Assembly: GCF_963576675.1 (NCBI RefSeq)
Contig: NC_088911.1
Coordinates: 130,761,929-130,825,928 of the forward strand
Direction of reading: 5' to 3'
Source of the DNA: Euphorbia lathyris
Lineage: Eukaryota; Streptophyta; Magnoliopsida; Malpighiales; Euphorbiaceae
DNA length: 64,000 nucleotides
Within the stretch, counting starts at the first letter, position 1. Each line of letters starts with the position of its first letter. Positions 8,368 to 60,404 of this stretch are shown piece after piece. The position numbers and the translations under genes were made by a program. The notes beneath the pieces were generated by a model. The model worked only from the letters and a program-made list of their open reading frames with translations, did not search any database and was not told the DNA's origin.

Positions 8368-8878
8368 TGACTAGCGGAGAGTTTCCGATTAGCTTTCGTC
8401 CCTATGGGGGCGTCGTTGGGTTCGACGGGGGAAGCTCCGATGCCAAAGTCAGTATAGAGTATGGAGGAATAAACTGAATTGACAAAGTAGGGTTTCTAGG
8501 ATTGTGTGAATGTGTACCTTGATAGCTTGAGATGCAAGCTATATATAGTCATGAAGTTGTAACCCTTAGTAACTAGAAAGTCTCCATTAATGCTTCATTA
8601 ATGGCGGTTACTAGTTTCCTTTAAGTATGTCCGTTAGCTTATTAATAGCTCATTAATTGCCTTTATTGAGGAATCGGCTCAGCTGTTCAGCTGGCGGATC
8701 GAAGGGTGATGGCGGATCTAACGTAGGTTGGACTACGGATCTCGTGTGGCGGAGTCTCGGTGATCCGCCCGTCGGATGTCTTTGCTTGATACGCCATGGC
8801 CTTCTTTGACCGGTTCAATACGCTGTCGTTTGGGTAAATATCTCATTTGATCCCTTGGATAATATCCTGATGTTATCA
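8368..8878 (-). repeat. 3' LTR of Gypsy element 1 (511 bp)
   Basis: On the minus strand it begins TGATAACATCAGG and ends CTCCGCTAGTCA, giving TG..CA termini. It contains a TATA box (CTATATATAG, in the block near 8540). The GGGGGGCTTC tract just outside the TGATAAC end is the polypurine tract and shows that this is the 3' LTR. Its sequence is close to the arms of the palindrome at 14484-15505 and more distant from the LTRs of element 2. Confidence 0.9.
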
Positions 8879-9177
8879 GAAGCCCCCCTAAAGTTCCTTT
8901 AAAGTCCTTTAGGGCTTTTGAACTTCTTCGCGCGCCGTCATGATGATTCGCATTAATGGCTACTCTGTTCAATGCCATTCGTTGGGTGACAGGTGTCATA
9001 GGCGCGCTGCTCGAGGGAAGAGAAAACACCTTCTTCCCTCTCCCTTTTCTCTTTCTACTTCATTTGCGTCTTTCTCTTTCGTCTTCCTTTGAGCTTTTTA
9101 CAGAGCTTTTTCCGGAGTTCAGAATCCTCAAAGCCTTTAACTCTCATGTAAGTGAATCCTTTCGCTCTGTTTTCTGA

Positions 9178-11394
9178 ATATTTAGGAGTTCTTCTTCTTC
9201 TGAGTCTACCTTCGAACTCTTTAATTTGACCACTTCCTCTGAAACTGTAATTAGCTGGACTACTTCTTCAGAAAATTCCGATTCTTCCGAAGGTACTCCC
9301 AGTTGCGACCTAGCCGAGTTGTGTAACTCGGTGTGTAATAACTATAGAACTCGTTTAAGTAGGACTCAGAACCTCCCCGTCGCCGTTTCTCGCATTGCTC
9401 CAGCAATAGATTCTAGGTAGTTTTCTGGGATGGAGGCTTCTTCTTCAGCCCCGTCTAGGAAAAAGGCGCCACGTGCGGAGTCCACTCCGTCTCGTATGAG
9501 CGCCGCGGATCTAGCAAATCTGGCGAATCGCTATCCATGGATTAAGAATTATGAGACTGAATTGGCGGCTGCCCATCAGCGACCCGCCTGTCCTCCAAGG
9601 GGATATCTGTCTGTGTACAGTTGTCATGTAGAAAGAGGGTTCCGACTTCCTCTTCCTAAGATGATGGCGGACATCTTGGCATACTTTGGAATCACTGTCT
9701 GCCAGCTGCATCCGAATGGTTGGTTAGATCTAGCTCTGGATTGTTATTTAGCTTCAAACTTAGGGGTAGTTTGTAACCCTCATGTTTTTCGGTCTCTGGA
9801 TCAAAGGCCGAATCTTTCCTCACTTTCGCTAAATTCAAAACTTATTCACCCTTCTGCGGTAAGATGTCGAATGTCCATCTTTGGGACGAAAGATTTTTCT
9901 TTGTAAAGATAAGAGAGGGCGAATCTCTAGGATTCCCGTCGGTTTGGAATGCCAAACCTTTACATATGGCTGGAGACATGCGTATATTGACGGACAATGA
10001 TGAGGAAGTGGCGGATCTCATGAAAAGTATCAAGGCGGATGCCTGGACATACACTGACGCCTTGGAATTCATGATGAATGACATTCCTTTGATCCGCCGG
10101 GAAGGGGACAAGATCACTTACGCGAAGTTTACACAACTTGATGAAGGTAACTTTGTTTTTCCCTGAACTTTGATTATTTTATTGTTCCCTTGCCAGGGGT
10201 TTATCTGAGGTCAGTCGCGCCCTTGTAGAGATACGCAAGAAACAGAAGGAGGAGGAGGCTCGAAACAAGGGGCAGGTAGCGGATCCCCGTAAGAGTGCTG
10301 AGAAGCGTCCTGCTGGTGATATGGTTGATCCTCCTCTCCCAAAGAAGAAGAAATCTGTGTCTAGCAGTGGAGGGAAGCTACTGGCGGATGCCATGAGAGC
10401 CGAGAAACCAATGGCGAGGCTTGAAGAGGTGCGTCTATCTTATCATTTTCTCTTCTCTTACTTGGATCTTATTTTCTGCTTTTTAATGCTTGTATAGGTG
10501 GTGAAGCCGGACTTAGGAGGTTACTGGTTCGCCAAATATGGTGACAAAGGATCACTGAAGAATGAATCCATCATCAATGATTTGGACGAAGCTCTTGGTC
10601 AACTCGGCGAGGTACGGGAGAGCCAGAATAAGATCTCGGGATCAGCCCATGTCCAGATGGGAAAAACAGAGCTTCTTACGGTAAGTTTCTTCTATCCCTT
10701 TTTGCATTTTTGGATGAAAGAGTGATCTCCCTTAAGGAGAGTTTGTCTTTTATTCCTTTGTTTGAATCGGCTTTTGCCTTGATAGGTATACACTTGCATG
10801 CGTGCTATGGAAGCGGATCTCCTTCAAGGAGTGGCGGATAAGGCAACCATAGAGAGGTTAGAGAAAGAGCTTGCTGTTGCCAATGCAAACGCTGCTTCCG
10901 CCGTGGCTCTTAATGAGAGTAAGGATGCTGAGATCCTTAGATTGAAGGAGAAGATAGATGCGGATGCTAAAAAGCATAAGGCTGCCTTACTGGACACGGA
11001 GATCCTGGCTGGGGAACGAGCTTACTATTATGGCGAGTGGATCATGGCGTATGTTCAACTTGCTCACCCCGAGATTGACTTTACCGATCCGGAGTACGTG
11101 GTTCCTGACGTAGAGGTTTGCCTTAAGTATTGCAAAATTCCAAATGTCAAGGATTACATCCGTGATCACATTCGCAAAGTGATGAATGGATCCGTCGAAG
11201 AGAGTAAACCCCTTGTCGATCTTGAACCAGATGACCTTGATGAAGCGCCCCAAAAGGCGGGTGATAAGAGTGAGGAGCTCATAACTGATTGTACCATTCC
11301 TCAAGAGGGTACTGTTTCTGTAGAGAAGGAAGCCCCACTGGAGGGCACATCTGGTGTAAAAGATGCTAAGAAGGATGCTCCTTTAGATGTTTAG
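9178..11394 (+). pseudogene. Spliced antisense gene of Gypsy element 1 (LHPNGW-domain protein)
   Basis: This gene lies on the strand opposite to pol, between pol and the 3' LTR. Comparison with the copy in element 2 gives four exons: 9178-10146, 10229-10438, 10498-10680 and 10786-11394, with GT-AG introns of 82, 59 and 105 bp in conserved phases. Exon 1 encodes a domain with RGFRLPLPKM and QLHPNGW, resembling the Pfam 'putative gypsy type transposon' domain (PF04195). Exon 2 is basic and rich in K/E. Exon 4 has a probable coiled coil (VADKATIERLEKELAVAN) and a conserved HPEIDFTDPE motif. Breaks: the start codon is ATA at 9178 where element 2 has ATG, there is an in-frame TAG at 9418-9420, and a frameshift near 9800. 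The function is unknown; family members are known only as extra proteins of plant retrotransposons. Confidence 0.85.
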
Positions 11395-12059
11395 TTCTTT
11401 GTAAAACTAAGTACAATTTTTAATCCTTGTTATAACCATTTATCTTTACTTTACGCTTTATGTTTTTCAGCAAGTAAATCTATAGGTTTTAGGATTGAAT
11501 TGAAGTAGGTGGCCAGCCATACCTCAGAGTGTGAGCCTTTGTGAAGGCTTGGAGCTTTTATTCCTTTAGAGGAAGTTAAGCTGCCTCAGGCGATCGATTG
11601 GCTTCCTGTCTTTGAGGTGAATCGATCTGCCACTAGGACTTTGGACTCTTTTTTGGAAAGAGTGTACGAGAGTGTAAAGATCTCACGTCTGAGAAATGTT
11701 TTAACTCTATCTCTGACGGGGATCAATGTGTTTCCTATCTTTGAGGTAGATAGATCCGCCGTTGAGATGGCTCTCCTATCTTTGAGGAGAAAGTAGTTTA
11801 TGCCATGATAGCATTATCCCATGTGTGGGAATGCGTTTGTTGGCCCCCCTTCTTTTTTAATCTGGAATATTTATATTGCTACAAGAAAATACTTAAAAAA
11901 GAATTGATAGGACAAAAGTTGCTTTTTATTGAATGGCAATGTGCCTTATTACAGCAAGTGGGTCTTACATGTGAGCCTCATTAAAACCTTTAATAAGAAA
12001 AACCTCATGGGATAAAAACTTACTAAAGGAAAAAGAGTACTCAAGACCTTGATTACATT
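11395..12059. other. Convergent spacer between antisense gene and pol
   Basis: No coding region is seen. This 0.66-kb stretch lies between the ends of the antisense gene and of pol, which are transcribed towards each other. It holds repeated short blocks such as TATCTTTGAGG with GATCCGCC. The corresponding spacer in element 2 (56749-57410) has about the same length, so the arrangement is conserved. Confidence 0.6.
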
Positions 12060-13705
12060 CTATTCTCTGGTAAAATATTTACGGAGGTTCTGGATGTTCC
12101 ACGTACGTGGCAGTGTGTTCCCCTCCATGTCTTGAATTTTAAACGTGGCGGATCCAATCTTGGTGATTATTCTGTATGGACCTGTCCAGGTGATCCCCAG
12201 TTTTCCTCTTCCTTACATAGATTGGATTTTATCCGCCTTTCGGAGCACGAGATCTCCAACATTCAGATTCACAAGCTTTGCATTTTTATCATGATAAGTT
12301 GCGATCCGTTGCTTGTAGGCTGCCATGCGTACATACGTCTTCTCTCTTTTCTCTTCCACTTGATCGAGACTTTCTTTCAACCTTCGGCTATTTTCATCCT
12401 CGTAATAGAATGCAACTCTGTCACTAGGGACCTGTATTTCAACAGGGATTACAGCTTCCACGCCGTGAGAAAGGGCGAATGGTGTCTCGCCCGTGGCCGT
12501 TCGTGGAGTGGTTCGGTACGCCCATAGGACGCTCATTAACTAATCCGCCCATTTTTTTTATCGTGCTCCCCCAACCTTTTCTTTATTCCTTTAACGATCG
12601 TCCGATTTGTAACCTCGGTCATCCCATTAGATTGGGGATAGTAAACAGAGGCGAACCTGTTTTGAATGCCCAGCTTTTCACAGAAAGTTTTGAACTCTCC
12701 ACAATTGAATTGCGTCCCATTGTCAGTGATAATCGTGTGGGGAACCCCGTACCTTCCAACGATATTATCCTTGACGAACTCTACCATTCGTTCGACGTTG
12801 ATAGAGGAGACAGCTTCGGCCTCTACCCATTTAGTAAAATGATCCACAACCACCACTACATACTTTCTTTGTCTTTTGGTAGGAGGAAAAGGACCAACGA
12901 TATCTATTCCCCAAACTGCAAAGGGTCGACCTTCGATGATGGGCCTTTGAAGGTGTTTAGCTGTGTGAGATTCATTTGCATGCACCTGGCAATTATGACA
13001 AGACTCCACTAACTTTTGGGCATCAAGTTCCGCTGTGGGCCAATAAAATCCTGCTAACCTGGACTTCTTCAAAATGGAGGCAGACGCCTCATGGGCTCCA
13101 CATGTGCCTTCATGCAACTCTTTGAGGATCTGTTGTCCCTCTTCTGTCACGATGCATTTCAACCAGGGGTGGCCAAAAGACTTTCTGTATAAGCAATCAT
13201 TTATCACGGAGAAATAGGCTGCCTTCCTTACCGTCCGTCGAGCTTCTTCTTTGTCCTGTGGCAGGGTGCCATCTATCAAGTACTGGCGAATAGGCGACCT
13301 CCAATCACTTTCGACGGATGCAAGTAAGGGTACCTCTTCTGAGGCGAATGCCGGTGCTGTCTTGACCTCGAATGGGCACTGTAGATCCGCCCAATGCTCC
13401 TTGCTTGAAGCCATTTTAGCTAGGTGATCAGCCTCGGTGTTAGATCCTCGGGGAACATGGATCAGTTCCCACTTGGTTTCTTTGGCTTCAAGGTGGTTCA
13501 GCAATTTCTTAACCTTTTCAACATATTTGGCCAGAATGTCATCTTTCACCTCAAAATTTTTTATTACCTGGTTGACCATTAATTTGGAATCATTGTAGAT
13601 TACGATCCGCTCGGGAGTGATTTCCTTCAACAGGCGTAGTCCCAATATTAAGGCCTCATACTCCGCTGCATTGTTGGTTGTGAGGAAGTCCAATTTTGCT
13701 GCGTA
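12060..13705 (-). pseudogene. Gypsy element 1 RNase H-integrase remnant
   Basis: Reading on the minus strand, it starts inside an archaeal-type RNase H (NNAAEYEALILGL, YNDSKLMVNQV, the C-terminal NTEADHLAK), then a zinc-binding H-H-C-C region (ELHEGTCGAHEA ... SCHNCQ) and the integrase core with WGIDIVGPFP, ITDNGTQF and SNGMTEVTNR carrying the D, D and E. A frameshift at about 12536 separates the core from the C-terminal part (RTTPRTATGETPFAL onward). A stop at about 12213 interrupts it again, before the PRTWNIQNLRKYF end at about 12060. Unlike element 2, the zinc-finger cysteines and catalytic residues are all present. The 5' half of pol is deleted. Confidence 0.9.
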
Positions 13706-13710
13706 ATGCA

Positions 13711-14182
13711 GTTTTAGCTGATTGATAATAGCAGTTTGTGCAAAAAGACGAATAAGGGCATTAATTTTGGCGCAGAAGAAGAGGGAGTCTATCTTTAGGG
13801 TTAAAGAAGTTCATTAATTTTAATATTGCAAAACGCTAATTGAAAAAGCTCCTAAAAGGAGTTTTTTCTAAATTAGCGTTTTCATCCCAAAACTCTCTCC
13901 CAAACCTCTCTCCACCAAACACTCCAACGGTTTCAGTGGTCAAACCTCTAAAGTTGGTCAAACCCGCTCTTTTTATCTCAAAACGCTCTTTACCAAACAG
14001 GGCCTATGACTCATTAAAATAAGCGATTTTTAACTTAATTAACTAATTTAAGTGGTGGAGAAACAACTGTTATCAGTATTTAAATTAAATAAGTGTTTAA
14101 CATTTTAATTTAAGTGACAAAACTTAATACAAGATCCATTAAGTTAAGAAAAACTTTAAAAAAAGCAAAAAGTATCATTTCC
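13711..14182. other. Flank between Gypsy element 1 and LINE
   Basis: No gene is recognised. The stretch contains an inverted repeat (AACGCTAATTGAAAAAGCTC against a downstream copy near 13860-13890) and ends in CCAAACAGGG, the suspected right end of an older hAT-type element. Confidence 0.4.
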
Positions 14183-14483
14183 GCAATTAAGAGTGCTTTG
14201 GATTGGTGTGAGTATAAGCACATTAGTAATGTGATCTTTGAGAGTGATGCGAAGGTTGTTACGGACAAATTACTTGGTACTGCTTCAGATCGCTCAGAGG
14301 TGGGAGTGATTATTGATGATATCAGACAGATTCTACTTAGACGTCTAGATTATTCTATGACCTTCATCTCAAGATTAGCAAACGGAACGGCTCATGCTAT
14401 GGCTATCCATGCTCGGTTCAATGCTAGTTTCTTTAATGATTTTTCTATCCCTGATTTCTTTGTTTATATAGTTTGTAATGAAT

Positions 14484-15505
14484 TGATAACATTGTGATAT
14501 TATCCCAAGGATCAAAAGAGATATTCGCCTAAAAGCGCCACGTGTTGATCACCTGATACGGGAATACCGCGGCGTATTGTAACAAAGAGATCCGACAGGC
14601 GGATCACCAGGGACTCACCAAAAGAGATCCGCGGGCGAACCTGTGAGGCGAATCTCCATAAGCACTCAATCCGCCATTAGAACGGCAAGGCCGATCCGGC
14701 AATAAAGACCATTAATGAGCTATCAATTAGCTAACCCCCAACTTAAAGGTAACCAGTAACCGCCATTAATGGGACATTAATGGAGACTTTCTAGTTACTG
14801 AAAGTTACAACTTCATGACTATATATAGCCTATGTCTCAGGCTATCAAGGTACACATGCACTCACCCTTTGTCAATTCAGTTTGCTCTCTTGTTCTTCCT
14901 TACTGACTTTGGCATCGGAGCTTCCCCCCGTCGAACCCAACGACGCCCCCACAGAGACGGAAGTTCATCGGAAATTCTCCACGCTCACCGCACCAATTGA
15001 TGACTCGTGGAGAATTTCCGATGAACTTCCGTCTGTAGGGGCGTCGTTGGGTTCGACGGGGGGAAGCTCTGATGCCAAAGTCAGTAAGGAAGAACAAGAG
15101 AGTAAACTGAATTGACAAAGGGTGAGTGAATGTGTACCTTGATAGCCTGAGACATAGGCTATATATATAGTCATGAAGTTGTAACTTTCAGTAACTAGAA
15201 AGTCTCCATTAATGTCTCATTAATGGCGGTTATTGGTTACCTTTAAGTTGGCGGTTAGCTAATTGATAGCTCATTAATGGTCTTTATTGCCGGATCGGCC
15301 CTACCGTTCTAATGGCGGATTGAGTGCTTATGGAGATTCGCCTCACAGGTTCGCCCGCGGATCTCTTTTGGTGAGTCCCTGGTGATCCGCCTGTCGGATC
15401 TCTTTGTTACAATACGCCGCGGTATTCCCGTATCAGGTGATCAACACGTGGCGCTTTTAGGCGAATATCTCTTTTGATCCTTGTGATAATATCACAATGT
15501 TATCA
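14484..15505. mobile_element. LTR palindrome (two inverted LTRs around one PBS)
   Basis: The left arm 14484-14983 runs TGATAAC...TTCTCCACG and the right arm 15006-15505 is its inverted copy, CGTGGAGAA...GTTATCA. Each arm is 500 bp, with about nine substitutions and two compensating 2-bp indels between them. The 22-bp centre holds part of the primer-binding site. TGAAT occurs directly on both sides (14479-14483, 15506-15510), the 5-bp duplication left by Gypsy integrase. Each arm corresponds to U3-R-U5 of the family of Gypsy element 1. The right (minus-strand) arm continues through the full PBS and then turns back at TCCACG. Each arm has a TATA box (CTATATATAG), and the two promoters face each other. 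Confidence 0.93.
14978..14995 (-). promoter_or_regulatory. tRNA-Phe primer-binding site at the palindrome centre
   Basis: On the minus strand the 18 bases TGGTGCGGTGAGCGTGGA are complementary to the 3' end of plant tRNA-Phe (…TCCACGCTCACCGCACCA, as known). The palindrome's second arm resumes at the base directly after the 18th base. Confidence 0.85.
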
Positions 15506-15555
15506 TGAATCTTCTTTGATTTCTTAATACCATTTTGTTTGGTTAAAAAAAAAAA

Positions 15556-50457: not shown

Positions 50458-50936
50458 TGATAACATTGGGATATTATCATGAGGACCAAAAGAGATAATT
50501 GCCTTAAGTATACCACGTAGCAAAGGAAGCCGGCTGGCGGATCTCCCTGGATTAGCTCAAAGAGATCCGCTGACGGATCTCTAAGGCGAATCTCTCCATT
50601 CACCTTGATAACGGTTGGCCGCCGTCTCGGCCATAAATGATCATTAAATGAATCATTAATAGTCTTAAACCGCCAGGTTAAGAGTAACTTGTAACCGCCA
50701 TTAAATGAGCATTAATGGAGACTTTCTAGTTACCTAGAGGTTACGAATTTCTCAACTATATATAGCCTACCTTTCTAGGCTATCAAGGTACACTTACTTT
50801 CTTACATTCTCTAAGCTTTGTCAATACAGTTTATTCTCCCTATTCTCTACTGACTTTAGCATCGGAGTGTCCCCGACCGATCCCAGCGGCACCTCACAGG
50901 GACGAGCTTCGATCAGGAATTTCTCCTTTGTTATCA
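50458..50936 (+). repeat. 5' LTR of Gypsy element 2 (479 bp)
   Basis: It begins TGATAACATTGGG and ends CTTTGTTATCA; the termini themselves are inverted repeats (TGATAAC/GTTATCA). A TATA box CTATATATAG lies at 50756-50765, so transcription should start about 30 bp downstream. Confidence 0.97.
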
Positions 50937-50938
50937 AT

Positions 50939-50956
50939 TGGTGCGGTGAGCGTGGA
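50939..50956 (+). promoter_or_regulatory. Primer-binding site, tRNA-Phe
   Basis: TGGTGCGGTGAGCGTGGA, two bases after the LTR, is complementary over all 18 bases to the 3' end of plant tRNA-Phe(GAA) as known from plant sequences. It is the same site as at the centre of the LTR palindrome. Confidence 0.88.
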
Positions 50957-51000
50957 GCCCTAGATCAAATAAAGGGTTTTTTTGTTCACACTGAAACATC

Positions 51001-54000
51001 ATGACTGATGGGGGACAAAATCCCTCCTCTGGGATTGAATCACCAATAATTACACCCTCTAGCGCTGGTCGCACTGATACAACTGCTCCTACAACAAATA
51101 TTGATGGAAATATGCCCACAACATCTTTCATCGATATGTGTGCTCAGGATATTGAGGCACGATACGGGCTTGAGATTGGGAACCGCCTTCGGGCATTCAT
51201 GACTGTTCCTCCGTGTTGGAGTACGGTGTCTACGTCAACTGTCTCGTCTTTACCTCCGTTAAGCTTTGGTCTAGGACCAGGTGCCCATAACTCTTCATTT
51301 CTCCAAGCTCACAACATTGATTCCATGATAACTACCACGGCATTGGGTGGCGGACGACCAGTTATCAGGGAGTTATTTCCAGGTGAGGGAAGTCAAAGGA
51401 ATGACGCGGTCCCTCCTGGCGGATCAGGGGTTCCAAGGTTTAATCTTGATGGGCTCAATGTACCTCGACGCCCGCGGACAAATTCGTCTCTTGGCGGATT
51501 TAAGGAGCCCATTCGTAAAAGACATAAAAAGAATAAAGATAAGCAAACAAGGTCCCCTTCGCCTAGACCAGCTAGATCCCCACGTCGTGGCAGATCTCCT
51601 CCATCTACTGGTCGTAGAAGAAGTAAAAGACCAGAAAAAACATCTCATGTAGGTGGACCACCGCCACATCCATCTTCAGGAGCTATTGGACACATCCCGT
51701 CTGGAGGCCAGCAAGGGGGAAATGGTCCAATTCCTCCAGGCAGAGGAGGTGGGGAGGAGATGGTAGAGGGAGAGGAAGAGGTGGACGACGTTCGCCATCA
51801 GATCCATCGTCTGAGTCAAGTTCTTCTTCTTCTCCAAGCAGATCGCCACAGAGAGGTCGTCCCAGGGCGGATCCGGAGAATTTTGATGATAGAGTGAGGG
51901 CCCTAGTGCTCCAAATGAACGAAGAAAATGCCATGCATAATCCATTCGCCAATAGGGATTCGCCTTTTGCGGCCTGGATCGAGGCAGAGGAAACTGAAAG
52001 AGCGTTCAAAATCCCTAATCTTGCAATATAGACAGGCAAAGATAATCCAGAGGCTCATGTTCGAAAATACCGAATCTTGGCCAGACTCAATCGAGCCACC
52101 GAGCCCGTACTTTGCAAGATGTTTGTCACCACCTTGGGAGGTCCAGCTTATTTGTGGTTTCAATCTCTACCTCCAGGCTCAATAAATAGCTTCGATCAAT
52201 TAAGCAGGGAATTTTGTTCTAAATTTGCTGGTTGCATTCCTGCAGTGGTGAAATCTGAAAAGCTTTTTGAATTAAAACAGAAGGCGAATGAACCCCTCCG
52301 AGATTATGTGGACACTTTCAACCAGTTGTGTATACAAATTGTTGATGTAGATATCTCCGTAGCTGTGGAGTGTTTTGTAAGAAACACTACCTGTAAAAGT
52401 TTGCAAGAAGACCTCATTCGCAAAAAGCCCACCAGCATGGCAGAGTTAATGGAGCGCTGTAAAGACTTTATAGAGGTGGATAATATTCACCGAGGTTCGC
52501 CATCATCGCCAAAAAAGGACAGAGGCGAATCCTGCCCTCGGGACCGGGACAAGGACAAACGTCAAGATTCTTCTTCTCGAAACAAACGAAGGGATTCTAG
52601 GAACAAATCAACGTTTGTCACCTCCTTCACACCTCTCAATGCTTCTAAGAGCGAAGTTCTTATGTGGATCGAGAACAGCCAGCACAAGTGGAGCATTTCA
52701 TACCCCGAGCCAAAAGGGGGGGAGTACACCAATAAAGGAAAGAATCCTAAAAATTATTGCAAGTATCACAGGAAAAATGGCCATGATACGGATGCTTGCT
52801 GGGAGTTAGCTCGAGAAATTGAACGACTCATCGAGAGAGGAAAATTGGATCGGTTCATCCAAACAGAAGGAAAGGAAGATGACAGATCCAAGGAGGACCC
52901 AAAGAACAAAGGAAAGGGTACCATCAATGTCATAGCAGGCGGACCCGGTTATCAGCCAGCATTGAAGAAGGCGAGGACGACCACCCTTGATAGGACATCG
53001 TTAAATCGCCCTTTCTTAGACGCATGTCCTGAGATTCCACCCCATGCGGACGCACTAGTTGTCACTATGATGGTGGAAGGTTGGGAGATGAAGAGGGTAA
53101 TGATTGATACGGGAAGTTCATGCAATATCATTACCCGAGGAGCATTCGCCAAACTCAGGATTGATCCGGCCCTGGTAGAACCGACTGTGGTGGACATTTT
53201 GGGAGTGACAGGTCATACCATTCAGACGAAAGGCCAAGTTACTTTGGATTGTGAGCTTACTGATGATGATCAAGTTTGGAGAGGAGATTTGGAGTTTTCG
53301 GTCTTGGATGGACAATTAGCTTACAATATTATCCTCGGACGACCTTTTATCTCCGAAGCTGCAGCTCTTATCTCTATTCGCCATTTAACGCTTTACATTC
53401 CCACGGTCAAGGGAGGCGTGATTGTTAGAGGTTGTCAAAAAGTAGCCCAAGAAACATATTCTGCTTCCTTAATGATTCGCCCTCAATCTAAGGAGGAAGA
53501 TGAAGAGGAGCGTGTCACAATGGCCTTAGGCGAGACCAAAATGTACCTAATGGCAGAGGAGAAGCAAGTACGGATAGCTAAGGGACTACAAGGCAATATC
53601 AGAGATGCAATCACCAAGGTACTCTGTGAGGCCGAGGATGTCTTCGCATGGAAGGATGAAATTCTACCTGGAATCAGTCCGGACGTGATCACCCATAAAC
53701 TCAACATCGATAAAGATGCAATTCCTGTGGCTCAGAAGCGGAGAAATCATGGTCCAGAAAGGCAAAAAGTGATAGAGGAAGAAATCGCCAAGCTCCAAAA
53801 GGCGGATGCCATTGAGGAAGTACATTACACTCAGTGGTTGGCGAACGTCGTGCTAGTCAAGAAAGCTGGCGGATCTTACCGCATGTGCATTGACTTTACA
53901 GATCTCAATAAAGCTTGCCCCAAGGATAACTATCCTTTGCCATGTATAGACATGCTTGTAGATGGAACTGCCGGTCATGCAATGTATTCCTTTACTGACG

Positions 54001-56748
54001 TGAAGTCAAGTTATCATCAAATCCCTATGGAGCCCTCAGATAGAATCAAGACCTCGTTCGTGACACATCAAGCTACTTATTGTTTTAAAGTTATGCCCTT
54101 CGGGCTCAAGAACGCAGGTGCTACCTATCAGAGGATGATGAACAAGATATTCACGGACAGTAAGAATGATAATTATTCTGTCTATGTAGATGATATGATC
54201 ATTAAAAGCACAACTGTAGAAAAGCATGCAGAGGATATAAAGGAGGTACTGGACGTACTTTGCCATCACAACATCAAGTTGAATCTAGAGAAATGCACTT
54301 TCGGGGCAACGTATGGAAAATTTTTAGGATTCATGATCAGCGAAAAAGGAATTAGCCCAAATCCTGACAAGATTAAAGCAGTCCTAGAAATGCAACCGCC
54401 TCGGAATATCAGAGAAGTGCAACGCCTTAATGGGCGTATCATAGCCTTGGGCAGGTTTATCTCTTGCTCAGCTCGTAGATGTCAGCCTTTTTTCGAAGTC
54501 ATCAAGGGGCAAAAGGCGTTTGAGTGGAATGAAGATTGTCAAAATGCCTTCGAAGGAATCAAACGATTCCTCACTGAGCCACCCATGATGAGTCGACCTT
54601 TGAAAGGGGAGGATCTATACATGTATGTGTCAGTCACGGACAAAGCCGTATGCACTGTCATGATACGAGAAGAAGATGGCCAACAATTCCCCATTTATTA
54701 CGTGAGCAAAGTTTTGAAAGATGCTGAAACCAGATATTCAAAGCTGGACAAAATGGCACTGGCTGTCGTAACCACGGCAATTCGCCTTAGGCCATATTTT
54801 CAGGCGCATACTGTAATAGTTCGAACCAATATACCAATGAGAAAGGTATTACAGAAGCCGGACACTTCGGGAAGGTTGATGGAATGGGCGATTCGCCTGG
54901 GCGAATTTGATGTAAGATATGAAAGCAGGTCATCTTTGAAAAGTCAGGTCCTGGCGGACTTCGTGAATGAATTCACTGACGAGGGGATATCTCATCCCAA
55001 GCCTCCATTAGAAGAATGGTCGATGTATACCGATGGAGCTTCCTCTGCAGATGGAGCTGGTGTGGGAGTTGTGATCAAAGGTCCCCACTACATAAGATTG
55101 CGATACGCAGCCAAGTTAAATTTCCATGCCACTAATAACGCTGCTGAGTACGAAGCTCTGATATTGGGCTTACGTCTACTTCAAGAGATCACCCCGGAGC
55201 AGATCGTGATCTACAGCGATTCTAAACTAATGGTCAACCAAGTAATCAAGAATTACGAGGTGAAGGACGAGGTTCTGGCCAAGTATGTAGCAGAAGTCAA
55301 AAAGATTCTGGATAACCTTGAAGCTAAAGAAACTAAGTGGGAATTGGTTCACATACCAAGGGAATCCAATACAGAGGCGGATCAATTGGCCAAAATGGCT
55401 TCTTGTGAAGAAAACTGGGCGGATCCAGATTGTCCCTTCGAAGTAAAAATGGCTCCAGCATTTGCTGCTGAAGAAGTGTCCGTACTCACAACGGTGGAAG
55501 ATGATTGGAGGTCAGTCATCCGCCAATATCTACTAAATGGAACATTACCTGAAGACAAGTAAGAGGCGAGGAGGATTGTCAGGAGATCAGCTTACTTCTT
55601 CTTGATCAATGATGGTCTTTACAGAAGATCTTTTAGTCATCCTTGGCTGAAATGCATTCTACCAGAAGAAGGACAGCAGATCCTCAAAGAGCTGCATGAG
55701 GGATCTTGCGGGTCGCATGAAGCATCCGCCGCGATCTTGAAGAAATCCAGGATAGCAGGTTTCTACTGGCCCACAGCTGAGTTAGATGCCCAGAGTTTGG
55801 TAGAATCTTATCACAATTGTCAGATTCACGCAAATGAGTCACACGCTATCAAACACATCCAAAGGCCAATCATTGAAGGCCGTCCGTTCGCCCTTTGGGG
55901 AATAGACATCGTTGGCCCGTTTCCCCCAACTCGCCGGCAAAAGAGGTATGTAATAGTAGCGGTGGACCATTTCACCAAATGGGTAGAAGCCGAGGCTGTT
56001 TCCTCCATTACAGCAGAACAGATAGTGGAGTTCGTCAAGGACAACACCGTGGGAAGATATGGCATTCCGCATACCATCATCACTGACAACGGGACACAGT
56101 TTAACTGTGGCAAATTCAAGGCTTTTTGTGAGGGATTGGGCATCCTGAACAGATTCGCCTCCGTTTATTATCCTCAGTCCAAATGGAATGACCGAAGTGA
56201 CCAATCGAACGATTGTAAAGGGGATAAAAAAGAGGCTGGGAGAACACGACGAAAGATGGGCGGATCAGCTTACAAGTGTTTTGTGGGCCTCTCGTACCAC
56301 CCCAAGAACCGCTACGGGAGAAACGCCATTCGCCCTTTCTCATGGAGTGGAGGCCGTAATCCCCGTTGAAATATAAGTCCCCAGTGATCGAGTGGCCTTT
56401 TATTGTGAAGAGGACAACGATAAACGATTAAGGGAGCGCCTGGATCAGGTTGAGGATCGCAGGAACCAATCCTATGTACGCATGGCAGCATATAAACAGC
56501 GGATTGCATCCTATCATGATAAAAATGCCAAGCTTGTGGATCTAAAGATAGGAGATCTTGTGCTTCGCAAAGCTGATAAAGTCCAATCTCGAGAAGGCAA
56601 GGGCAGGTTGGGGATCAACTAGATAGGTCCATACCAGATAGTGGAGAAGGTTGGACCAGCCACATTCAAAATACAAGATATGGAGGGCAATACGCTACCA
56701 CGCACGTGGAATCTCCAAAATCTCCGCAAATACTTTGTTAGAAAATGA
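51001..56748 (+). pseudogene. gag-pol of Gypsy element 2, multiply interrupted
   Basis: The gag starts at ATG 51001 with a basic, RS- and GRG-rich N-terminal region, then the gag core (LGGPAYLWFQSLP, FDQLSREFCSKFAGC). The long frame 52077-55562 continues with C-x2-H-x4-H-x4-C (CKYHRKNGHDTDAC), the protease IDTGSS, RT (MCIDFTDLNKACP, YVDDMI), a first RNase H (EEDGQQFPIYYVSK) and a second one (YTDGASSADGAG, NNAAEYEAL, YSDSKLMVNQ). Integrase follows (WGIDIVGPFP, ITDNGTQF). Lesions: frameshift near 51750, TAG at 52029-52031, TAA at 55560-55562, a zinc-finger Cys replaced by Tyr near 55810 (SYHNCQ), one extra A near 56180 that shifts the frame before the catalytic Glu, TAA at 56374-56376 and TAG at 56620-56622. 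The terminal stop is at 56746-56748. Confidence 0.95.
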
Positions 56749-57410
56749 AGTATGTCCATGGTCTTGAGTACTCTTTTTCCTTTAACAAGCTTTTTCCCAT
56801 GTGGTTTTTCTTGTTAAAGGTTTTAACGAGGCTCATTTATAAAGACCTATTCACTGTAATAAGGTGTTTCTCCCATTAATAAACATTGTTGGTTTTATTA
56901 TCCATGTTCTTTTTATAGTTTACTGCTGCAATATCAATATTCCAGTCTTAAAAAGAAGGGGAGGCATCCAACGCTCTCCACATTCGCAATGTATCGCTAT
57001 CGTAAAACACATAAGAGGATCAATCTTATGGGCGGATCCGTCTCTGGGCGGATCCCAATCTCCAATAAGAGTTAAAACGATCCTTGGACGCAAGGTCTTT
57101 ACACTCTCTTATCCTTCTCAGAAAGGAATTCACAAGTCCTACGGGCGGATCATTTCACCTCAAAGATAGGTAGCAAATTGAACCCCTAGGCAGCTTTACT
57201 TCCTCTAAGAAGGAATAGAACAGCTTCAAACCTTCACAAAGGTTCATACAATGGAGTATGGTTGGCCACTTACTCCAAACGAAAATCCTAAACATGCTTA
57301 TATTTAAAAATACTTCTTTACGCAAATGTAAGGGTAAAATAAATATATAGCAACATGAGGAATTAACCAAATTGTACTTAAAAGGTTTTTACAAAAATCT
57401 TTACCAAAAA
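56749..57410. other. Convergent spacer of Gypsy element 2
   Basis: Non-coding. It holds GGCGGATCC-rich blocks and lies between the ends of pol and of the antisense gene, as in element 1. Confidence 0.6.
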
Positions 57411-59636
57411 CTAAATAATAATAAGGGCATCCCCTTTTGTGCTTCCTTCGCCCACGATGCTCGCTTGAGGATCCTTCTTCTCCACAGTCACAGATCCGCC
57501 ATCAGGAGATACCTCCTTATCCCCTTTTGGTTCTGAATCAGCCTTAGACGGCATCTCTTGGGGATCATCCGCCACAACTATGGTAGAAGGTTTGGTTTCC
57601 TGCAGGGTTCCCTTCATCCATCTCCGTACATAGTTGCGGAGGTATTCCTTGGCATCTGACATCTTCTTGAACTTCGCCACGTCTTCTGGTTCGGGGACGG
57701 TGAACTCAGGATCTGTGAAATCAATTCCAGGATGAGCCAAGGAGAAGTACGCCATAAGAATCTCTCCATAAAAAAAATGCCTGTTCACCCGCCGTGTATT
57801 CAGCTTCCCCGAGAGCATCTTCGTGGCTTTTAGCATCAGAAGCTATCTTTGCCTTTAAACTTTGTATCTCCTCGTCTCGGAGAACCAAAGCAGCTGTGGC
57901 GGAAGCTAGGTTCGCGTTGGCGGTGGCAATAGTGGAATTGGCATTCGCTATATCTTTCTCTAACTTTTCAATAGTTGCCATATCCGCCACGTTCTGAAGG
58001 AGTCCATTTTCCAAAGTACGCAAGCGGGCATACAGCTGTAAAAGACAAAAGGATTTAGTCCAAGGGCGAAACGGAAGTAAAGAAATCATCACTACCCATA
58101 TTCTTTTGATACTCACCGAAAGAAGCTCTGATTTTCCCTTATGGACATGAATTGATCCAGGGATTTGGTCGTAGTTCCTTTGTACCTCTCCCACCTGTCC
58201 CAGGGCCTCATCCAGATCATTCAGAAGGGATTCATTCTCAAAAGAACCCTGGGCCCCCAATTTGGCGGACCAGTATCCTCCAATATCGGGCTTAGCCATC
58301 TGCACAAATAGGAAAAAGCCATACGCCGCTTTAGAATCGGATGAGTAAAGAAGAAATAAAACAATGGATTACCTGAATTATCTTCTCAGCAGGTTTGGCG
58401 AATCGCATCACGTCTGCCATAATCTTGGTACCACCAGCAGTATTGGGCCGCCTCTTCTTCAGGGGCGGATCAACAGCTGTCTCAGCAGGACGCTTGCCTG
58501 TATCAGTTTGAGGATTGGCCGCTTGGCTTTTCTTGCGTGCTTCATCTTCTAAAAACTTCATGCGCGTCTCTGCAAGAGCGTGATTTGCCTTAGATACACC
58601 CCTGCCAAAAAAGACATCAAAGTAATCAAGACTCCTGAAGTAGCAGAAAGGTACCTTGATCAAACTGAGTAATTTTTGAATAAACGAATTGATCTTACAC
58701 TCGGCGGATCAGAGGAATGTCACTCATCATGAAGGCTAAGGCATCCGCATACGTCCATGCATCCGCCTTGATCTGCTTCATGAGATCCGCCACCTCTTCA
58801 TCACTGTTTGTTAAGACTCGCATGTCACCCGCCATATGTAGCGGACGGGAGTTCCAAACTGAAGGAAAACCTAACGGTTCATCCTCCTTTATTTTCACAT
58901 AGAAGAAACTCTCATCCCAGCTATGCACGTTGGACATTTTATGGTAAAAGGGCGAATAGACACCAAATTTGGCGAATGTAAGATAGGATTCCAAATTCCT
59001 CTTAGAAGGTTTATGAAAGGCTCTAAATATACGGCCCGTATAAACAACACCCAAATTTGAAGCGAGATAGCAGTCCAGGGCCATGTCAAGCCAGCCATTA
59101 GGATGTAGCTGACTGGCAGCAATGTCAAAATATGAGAGGATATCCGCCAACATCTTTGGGAGAGGAAGGCGAAACCCTCTCTCAACATGACTACAGAATA
59201 CGGTAAAGAAGCCATTCGGCGGATTAGAGGGACGTTGATGAGAAGCTGCGAGTTGGGTTTCATAATTTTTGATCCACGGAAAGCGATCCGACAGATTCGC
59301 CAAATCCGCGGCACTCATACGAGATGGAGTGGACTCCGCTCGAGGATTCTTTTTCCTAACAGGAAAAGAAGAAGATGCCATTAAACCCAGAAACCGGTTA
59401 CGAGCACCGGCCGGAGCAGCACCGGAAAAGAAAGAGGGATTTCCGGTGGAACGAGTCTGGTAACGGTTACGCGCCGAGTTATTGAACTCAGCTAAACCAG
59501 AATTAATCACACCAACAGAAGATTGAGAATTTTCCGATGAAGATGCGGTCCAACTAAAATCTACTTCAATCTTAGGAGGAGGTGCTGAATTAAAAAGTTC
59601 AGAAGTTGACCCAGAGGAAGATGAACTTCTAAACAT
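57411..59636 (-). pseudogene. Spliced antisense gene of Gypsy element 2 (LHPNGW-domain protein)
   Basis: The ATG is at 59636, about 290 bp inside the 3' LTR. Exons by comparison with element 1: 59636-58655, 58569-58373, 58299-58117 and 58035-57411. Introns are 85, 73 and 81 bp with GT-AG ends and phases 1, 0, 0, the same as in element 1. Exon 1 carries an acidic Ser-rich start (FRSSSSSGSTSELFNSA), then ERGFRLPLPKMLADIL and QLHPNGW, resembling PF04195. Exon 2 has a basic PPLKKRRPN stretch that could be a nuclear signal. Exon 4 has a predicted coiled coil (VADMATIEKLEKDIANAN) and HPGIDFTDPE. Breaks: a TAA near the end of exon 1 (about 58695) and a shift in a T8 run near 57770 in exon 4. The start codon is intact. 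No known enzymatic motif. Confidence 0.87.
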
Positions 59637-59904
59637 TCAGGATAAAATGAAAAGGCACTTACATGGAAATGTAGAAGCCTGAGTAGGATCTCTGAAATTT
59701 CTGGAGGAAAAGCTTCGAAAACGGAAGGAGATGAAAAATGAGGAAGAAAGAGAACTCCGAAGATGAAGATGGTTTTTGAACGTTCCTAGGGCAGTGTGCT
59801 ATTACACGTGTCGGCCATCAAAGGGCATTGAACAGAGTGCACATTAATGAAGAAGCATAAGACAGCGCGCAGAAGTCCAAAAGCCCTAAAGGACTTTAAA
59901 GGCA

Positions 59905-59925
59905 TTTTGGGGGGGGGGGGGCTTC
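59905..59925 (+). promoter_or_regulatory. Polypurine tract of Gypsy element 2
   Basis: Thirteen G residues followed by CTTC directly precede the 3' LTR. The same GGGGGGCTTC order is found at the 3' LTR of element 1, so the CTTC is conserved. Confidence 0.8.
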
Positions 59926-60404
59926 TGATAACATTGGCATATTATCATGAGGACCAAAAGAGATAATTGCCTTAAGTATGCCACGTAGCAAAGGAAGCCG
60001 GCTGGCGGATCTCCCTGGATTAGCTCTAAGAGATCCGCTGGCGGATCTCTAAGGCGAATCTCTCCATTCACCTTGATAACGGCTGGCCGCCGTCTCGGCC
60101 ATAAATGATCATTAAATGAATCATTAATAGTCTTAAACCGCCAGGTTAAGAGTAACTTATAACCGCCATTAAATGAGCATTAATGGAGACTTTCTAGTTA
60201 CCTAGAGGTTACGAATTTCTCAACTATATATAGCCTACCTTTCTAGGCTATCAAGGTACACTTACTTTCTTACATTCTCTAAGCTTTGTCAATACAGTTT
60301 ATTCTCCCTATTCTCTACTGACTTTAGCATCGGAGTGTCCCCGACCGATCCCAGCGGCACCTCACAGGGACGAGCTTCGATCAGGAATTTCTCCTTTGTT
60401 ATCA
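59926..60404 (+). repeat. 3' LTR of Gypsy element 2 (479 bp)
   Basis: The same length as the 5' LTR with six single-base differences and no indel, i.e. 98.7% identical. Confidence 0.97.

Follow-up and report, generated by a model that had tools for sequence, protein, structure and literature searches.

A head-to-head LTR palindrome in Euphorbia lathyris as a probable product of fold-back-primed plus-strand strong-stop DNA

A solo LTR is an LTR sequence that stands without internal genes and has a target duplication, and elements of the DIRS type are not known to have a target duplication. The 1022-bp unit at positions 14484-15505 of the window, the 64,000-nucleotide stretch of Euphorbia lathyris DNA analysed here, resembles a solo LTR in both respects but differs in having two inverted LTRs and a primer-site loop, for which LTR-LTR recombination offers no explanation. 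It shares inverted LTRs with DIRS-type elements; these carry genes including a tyrosine recombinase, as described in part of PMC5633606, whereas the unit has no room for genes and does have a 5-bp duplication. An assignment to DIRS was rejected on account of that duplication and of a content limited to LTR arms and a primer-site loop. The template-switching complexes of plant LTR retrotransposons (Sabot and Schulman 2007; PMC1950507) are likewise reverse-transcription errors inserted as one piece with a 5-bp duplication, but passages of that paper give them a third, internal LTR and two internal regions. The unit lacks both and was for this reason not accepted as such a complex; the terms 'inverted' and 'palindrom' have 0 occurrences in the main text of the paper.

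A passage of PMC3185662 has plus-strand synthesis proceed up to the methylated A58 of the tRNA, and the plus-strand strong-stop DNA of retroviruses and Ty elements is, like the first half of the unit, U3-R-U5 plus an 18-nt tRNA copy ended by A58. The unit departs from this scheme in that its 3' end appears to have been extended on U5 rather than on the minus-strand primer site, and in that the product was integrated. Minus-strand strong-stop DNA of HIV-1 also primes on itself, at TAR, but it is the opposite strand with a different fold and is placed, in the relevant part of PMC4668388, among aberrant or abortive cDNAs, whereas the unit would be an integrated plus-strand product. An HIV tRNA-deletion paper (PMC12220202) concerns, in the part that bears on this question, a different mechanism. 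Strong-stop DNA, the A58 stop, minus-strand strong-stop self-priming and integrated template-switch errors are already known. Among the titles and abstract openings listed by searches of the open-licence literature, there was neither an integrated plus-strand strong-stop palindrome nor base 18 as a recurrent mis-priming point, which is weak evidence of absence given that subscription papers lie mostly outside that scope.

The unit contains only two LTR arms and a primer-site loop (Table 1). The arms stand head to head around 22 nt of loop and measure exactly 500 nt each when TCCACG/CGTGGA is counted in both. The ends are TGATAAC on the left and GTTATCA on the right, giving the TG...CA termini common to LTRs of the family, with a short target duplication beside them. 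On the minus strand, a 508-nt LTR leads through AT into the 18-nt primer site TGGTGCGGTGAGCGTGGA, and the inverted arm follows directly. A preliminary description, made from the sequence of the window, had reported two inverted 500-nt arms with these ends between TGAAT repeats, a U3-R-U5 arm running into a full 18-nt primer-site copy that ends in CGTGGA with the inverted arm next to it, and a complement to CGTGGA, TCCACG, near the end of U5; every one of these features was found. A chance origin is excluded for an inverted repeat of about 500 bp matching at 95.7-98%.

Table 1. Positions of the parts of the unit, of the related element in the window, and of the other loci discussed
Feature	Position	Strand	Remarks
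Target: 3' part of a LINE	14184..15544	+	split by the unit; comprises an RNase H-like frame and the 3' end; assigned to LINEs by eye from that frame
Left target-site duplication, TGAAT	14479..14483	.	5 bp
Right target-site duplication, TGAAT	15506..15510	.	5 bp; also supported by the empty site
Arm 1	14998..15505	-	complete 508-nt LTR, U3-R-U5, TGATAAC...GTCATCA; putative plus-strand strong-stop arm
TCCACG in U5	15006..15011	-	proposed fold-back template site for the 3' end
AT spacer	14996..14997	-	between LTR end and primer site
tRNA-Phe primer-site copy TGGTGCGGTGAGCGTGGA	14978..14995	-	18 nt; stops where the next tRNA base is A58
CGTGGA	14978..14983	-	putative 3'-terminal six bases of plus-strand strong-stop DNA; complementary to 15006-15011
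Loop AGTCATCAATTGGTGCGGTGAG	14984..15005	-	22 nt, single copy; LTR end, AT and primer site
Inverted arm (arm 2 minus CGTGGA)	14484..14977	-	U5-R-U3 copy that starts one base past TCCACG and reaches the U3 terminus
Related full-length Ty3/gypsy element	50458..60404	+	flanks GGCGC; same 18-nt primer site
L146	C9:23152338		second head-to-head site; other subfamily, LTR 87% to the unit's LTR
L041	C4:64445548		base 18, then GAATTTC (7 nt, matches own-U5 fold-back), then pol (RNase H coding sequence)
L046	C1:3021918		mini element: LTR, primer site, 46 nt, LTR; flanks GATAG/GATGG
L054, L055	C1:127994429, 128012873		18 kb apart; one insertion by flanks, counted once
L064	C2:101855524 (L064 988-1545)	strand reading LTR to primer site	strong-stop monomer

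The full-length relative in the window has gag, reverse transcriptase, RNase H and integrase matches, together with a weak protease match below the Pfam cut-off, and its LTR pieces are 70-72% identical to the unit. The polarity of the arms was fixed by LTR copies elsewhere in the genome, the window's own LTR relatives being too distant, and arm 1 aligns end to end with 17 family LTRs. The TG...CA ends, the full-length relatives and a clean empty site identify the unit as an integrated product of a Ty3/gypsy LTR retrotransposon. Between the integrase and 3' LTR of the full-length element lies an antisense frame with a Transposase_28 match (58695-59636, minus strand), and a degraded element of a related subfamily occupies 8368-13716 (minus strand), with a 3' LTR and, at 8878, a polypurine tract; no 5' part of it was found. 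The window also contains a GT34 glycosyltransferase, a TspO-like gene and LINE-type reverse transcriptases, which together with the Ty3/gypsy element and the tRNA-Phe primer site suggest the DNA of a flowering plant.

The target of the insertion was sought in the genome (1.02 Gb in 33 contigs, with the window in contig C2) using the two flanks joined through one TGAAT, a 334-nt query with its junction at 300. Among 124 candidates, 40 were scored and 39 of these rows were not the locus itself. All but one of the 39, LINE copies matching the joined flanks at 88-94% identity, are continuous across the insertion point; 16 span exactly 334 bases, and the sole exception ends at 296. The locus itself matches just to the junction (query 1-300). 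This continuity of the LINE paralogs through the joined flanks argues that the 1022 bp were inserted as one piece, and the palindrome entered the continuous LINE end in a single insertion with a 5-bp duplication, which is what integrase does with a two-ended substrate. That integrase inserted the unit whole had originally been proposed from the ends and the 5-bp repeat, and the clean empty LINE site now backs the proposal.

Ten substitutions, over 498 positions, and two 2-bp indels separate the two arms. When the arms are set against the 17 family LTRs, the deviating base lies in arm 1 at seven sites and in arm 2 at three; the arm-1 states at positions 203 and 273 each occur in two of the 17 relatives, one of the indels occurs in one, and the remaining differences are private. 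At positions 114 and 382 both arms share bases that are absent from all 17. These patterns fit a single source for both arms followed by separate decay, and are compatible both with a hairpin and with a dimer of like templates. In three ordinary elements, whose LTRs were paired by position on the same contig, we counted 3, 7 and 10 LTR differences in 508 (L033 differs from L032 and from L023 at 16 and 11 positions, but in neither case do the two LTRs belong to one element, and both comparisons were left out), and the divergence of the palindrome's arms thus lies at the upper end of this range. The first 200 nt of U3 hold only one of the ten arm substitutions, for which chance or conversion between the arms could account.

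The turn of the palindrome falls right after base 18 of the tRNA-Phe primer site, and the next base of the tRNA is A58, as placed on what we take to be the plant tRNA-Phe sequence, which ARAGORN accepted; the same program found no tRNA gene in the window. A58 is presumably where the plus-strand strong-stop DNA stopped. Base 19 of the palindrome is G, as copying of U5 predicts, whereas read-through of the tRNA would give T; in 90 copies with the usual leader this base is A in 66, T in 11, G in 8 and C in 5. When the end of the strand is folded as DNA, TCCACG:CGTGGA and inner pairs form and the 3' end is closed, at -8.8 kcal/mol, a value reached by 3 of 200 shuffles. The end of U5, TCCACGAGTCATCA (window 15011-14998, minus strand), resembles the tRNA-Phe 3' end TCCACGCTCACC, and can for this reason pair with the primer site. 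Across 100 primer-site loci that were read, the last bases of U5 include TCCAC in 55 and TCCACG in 6. A complement to five or more of the terminal bases is present in the final part of U5 at 55 of the 100 sites as against 3% after shuffling, an excess for which kinship of the copies accounts at least in part. Variants of the primer site with GAACG, GAAGG or GATCG in place of GAGCG recur across copies (L012, L014, L024, L027, L031, L146).

The same turn occurs elsewhere in the genome. A genome-wide pattern for head-to-head U5 ends of the unit's family, with exact 10-base U5 motifs on both sides and 31 gap lengths (44-74), matched two sites, both with a gap of 58, the gap given by base 18 paired to TCCAC(G); a reversed-pattern control matched 0. 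In the second site, L146, an LTR and AT lead into a variant of the 18-nt primer site, followed by a 25-nt back-copy of the locus's own U5 and then by host DNA. Its fold-back matches the U5 of its own subfamily at 30 of 30 nt, the five paired bases included, and it is a 25-nt partial fold-back rather than a second full palindrome; a 5-bp duplication was looked for there and none was seen. The expectation that other inverted pairs of the family would turn at base 18 on TCCACG was borne out as to the position of the turn, at both sites within the gaps and motifs searched, but not in full, as L146 pairs through five bases and is partial. Only one complete palindrome was found by this search. A pattern for base-18 fold-backs that admitted primer-site variants and one mismatch matched three places genome-wide, the unit, L146 and the ambiguous L041, with 0 in the control. 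L041 is the weakest of the three, in that its 7 nt could instead copy a 10-nt match in pol; read as a direct join to pol, it has no terminal match. Complementarity of the terminus to the fold-back site amounts to 6 bp in the unit and 5 bp in both L146 and L041.

A junction pattern with up to three mismatches matched six places, namely the unit, L041 and L042-L045, and missed L146 because more positions differ there. L042-L045 resemble ordinary starts of other families and were rejected as fold-backs. In the viral_contigs collection the junction pattern had 0 matches. The bare primer-site pattern occurred there in 10 contigs, which we read as chance coding matches; in eight of the 10 the upstream context is one and the same and unrelated, in two it is different, and TCCACG is absent from the 80 nt before the primer site in all 10.

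Departures from ordinary element structure are concentrated at the same base. The genome contains 145 places with an exact LTR end and primer site, and 100 of them were read, about half (L096-L144) for only some 150 nt past the primer site. An automatic leader motif flagged ten of the 100, with L071, L085, L126 and L129 judged to be ordinary leader variants and six (the unit, L041, L046, L054, L055 and L064) abnormal from base 18 on. L046 joins base 18 to sequence just before the polypurine tract, where the acceptor shares GGA with the end of the primer site, and L054/L055 join it to a leader position that lies about 390-400 nt further in relatives, with TGGA common to the acceptor and the primer end, or GGA when other relatives are taken. 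These joins to distant element DNA thus have 3 and 3-4 terminal matching bases, respectively. L064 consists of an LTR, AT, a 35-nt tRNA-Phe copy (18 nt plus 17 past base 18) and host DNA; it has a 37-nt imperfect duplication in its flanks, and no 5-bp duplication was seen when one was looked for. It is an inserted strong-stop monomer that read past A58, and the stop there is accordingly not absolute. Three further loci, L050, L072 and L068, leave the family about 40, 76 and 95 nt past the primer site, L050 (C1:43572052) entering GC-rich unrelated sequence.

For a count of breakpoints we took the 50 loci with at least 1226 nt read past the primer site, positions being set by our own reading. 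Four independent breakpoints fall at base 18 (the unit, L046, L054/L055 and L064) and 12 are spread over the stretch that follows, so that breakpoints pile up at base 18: an even rate would put 0.01 at any one base, and the probability of at least four is 4e-10 and of at least three 1.6e-7. With the unit and the read-through L064 left out, two base-18 breakpoints remain (P 5e-5), and if the other breakpoints numbered 18 instead of 12, the probabilities would be 2e-9 for at least four at base 18 and 1e-4 for at least two. Each of the 12 marks the end of alignment to relatives or the start of a long gap, and some of them will reflect other elements that inserted there; L063 and L085, which belong to a distant subfamily, are not among them, nor are the small length variants L048, L059, L076 and L086 near 720-780. 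L091 also contains the leader of a second element and is the chief source of a one-count entry in most rows of the breakpoint table. The sample required an intact base 18 and covers base 18 onward; we estimate that last bases restored by chance would contribute no more than about one third of the rate at a single position.

We consider it very probable that the unit is an integrated by-product of reverse transcription, formed from plus-strand strong-stop DNA that was primed by folding back. According to this view, strong-stop DNA comprising U3-R-U5, AT and an 18-nt tRNA copy would have been made normally and ended at A58 of the tRNA. The normal second transfer to the minus-strand primer site would then have been skipped, and the 3' CGTGGA would have paired with TCCACG near the end of U5, either within its own strand, as a hairpin, or on another strong-stop strand inside the particle, as a dimer. 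Extension of the paired 3' end to the end of U3 would give a duplex with U3 termini at both ends, which integrase could put whole into the LINE, duplicating 5 bp. Further support for the strong-stop origin comes from the L064 monomer with its 35-nt tRNA copy and from two deletion derivatives whose deletions begin at base 18.

The preliminary description had strong-stop DNA prime itself into a palindrome with two U3 ends. The turn at base 18, its recurrence and L064 speak for this, but the description skipped a step. A simple hairpin has only one U3 end, and a two-ended palindrome therefore needs either a dimer or a later opening and copying of the hairpin. By the hairpin route, the loop would have to be opened and copied before integrase could act. 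By the dimer route, two strong-stop strands would pair at both TCCACG/CGTGGA sites, each priming the other, so that two U3 ends would arise at once and the 22-nt bubble would later be fixed to one strand. We favour the dimer solely because the two ends arise directly. Two points count against fold-back priming: six (or five) base pairs with a 22-nt loop would prime poorly without assistance, and at the time when strong-stop DNA forms, U5 should lie in a duplex with minus-strand DNA.

The polymerase that extended the paired end may have been reverse transcriptase or host polymerase theta, and matches of 3-6 nt fit both alike. Terminal matches of 3-6 nt are typical of the polymerase theta pathway, and a copy of 494 nt to the end of U3 is a long one for it to make, except where two full LTR pieces had been joined. 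The closest rival has host microhomology-mediated end joining by polymerase theta unite two LTR-ended cDNA pieces, one ending at base 18 and the other cut back to TCCACG in U5, before integration. The 3-6 nt terminal matches at the ectopic joins speak for it, as do the short copies in L041 (7 nt) and L146 (25 nt), which resemble templated insertions, and alternative end-joining factors including polymerase theta have been reported, in part of PMC12786077, to mediate second-strand transfer via primer-site microhomologies. The second piece, however, would have to be resected to an exact point, and the length of the 494-nt copy weighs against the enzyme; we hold this account to be unlikely. The base-18 end and a paired intermediate are common to both accounts, and end joining can for this reason be seen as a variant of the fold-back explanation.

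Accounts that dispense with such an intermediate fare worse. LTR sequences of this kind are common (4313 first-look candidates, of which 40 were scored), so that two elements in opposite orientation might have inserted close together and a later deletion might have left head-to-head LTRs, but the perfect 5-bp duplication at two U3 ends and the clean empty LINE site contradict this, the arms share two bases absent from 17 other LTRs, and the junction sits exactly at base 18. We consider such a history highly improbable. Palindromes are a known class of artefact, and the unit, being one, might be suspected of having arisen as a fold-back chimera during assembly or amplification; yet 10 substitutions and two indels, most of them private, distinguish its arms, and it has both a target duplication and an empty site, which leaves an artefact scarcely credible. 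Long inverted repeats with a target duplication also give the unit the overall shape of a foldback or MITE-like DNA transposon. Against this, both arms align over their whole length with LTRs, and several of these LTRs have a primer site behind them; reverse transcriptase and integrase are present in the window's related element, the loop is an LTR end, AT and a primer site, and no second full copy was seen among the 40 scored of the 4313 candidates; a DNA transposon is the least credible origin of all.

Returning to fold-back priming of strong-stop DNA, a broader possibility, to which we give even chances, is that in this element family the base-18 3' end is a promiscuous primer that can start at any 3-6-base match, so that one class of error yields a series of products. 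These would include strong-stop monomers, partial fold-backs, full palindromes and internal-deletion or mini (TRIM-like) elements. Full palindromes would be good integrase substrates in such a series because both of their ends are U3. This is a possible reason why an LTR palindrome integrates cleanly and one-ended strong-stop pieces do not, the contrast being a perfect 5-bp duplication in one palindrome and none seen in L146 or L064. The inward-facing LTR promoters at the ends of a palindrome could also give rise to hairpin RNA against its own family.

Second-strand transfer is a late and rarely observed step in the replication of LTR elements, and part of PMC12786077 reports that host microhomology repair performs it. 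If base-18 junctions are fossil errors of this step, any assembled genome shows how the 3' end picks its templates, and the bases needed, the frequency of fold-back and the products formed would be readable from genomes. Errors of second-strand transfer would then be one route by which non-autonomous LTR elements are born, giving a concrete origin for deletion-derivative and mini elements.
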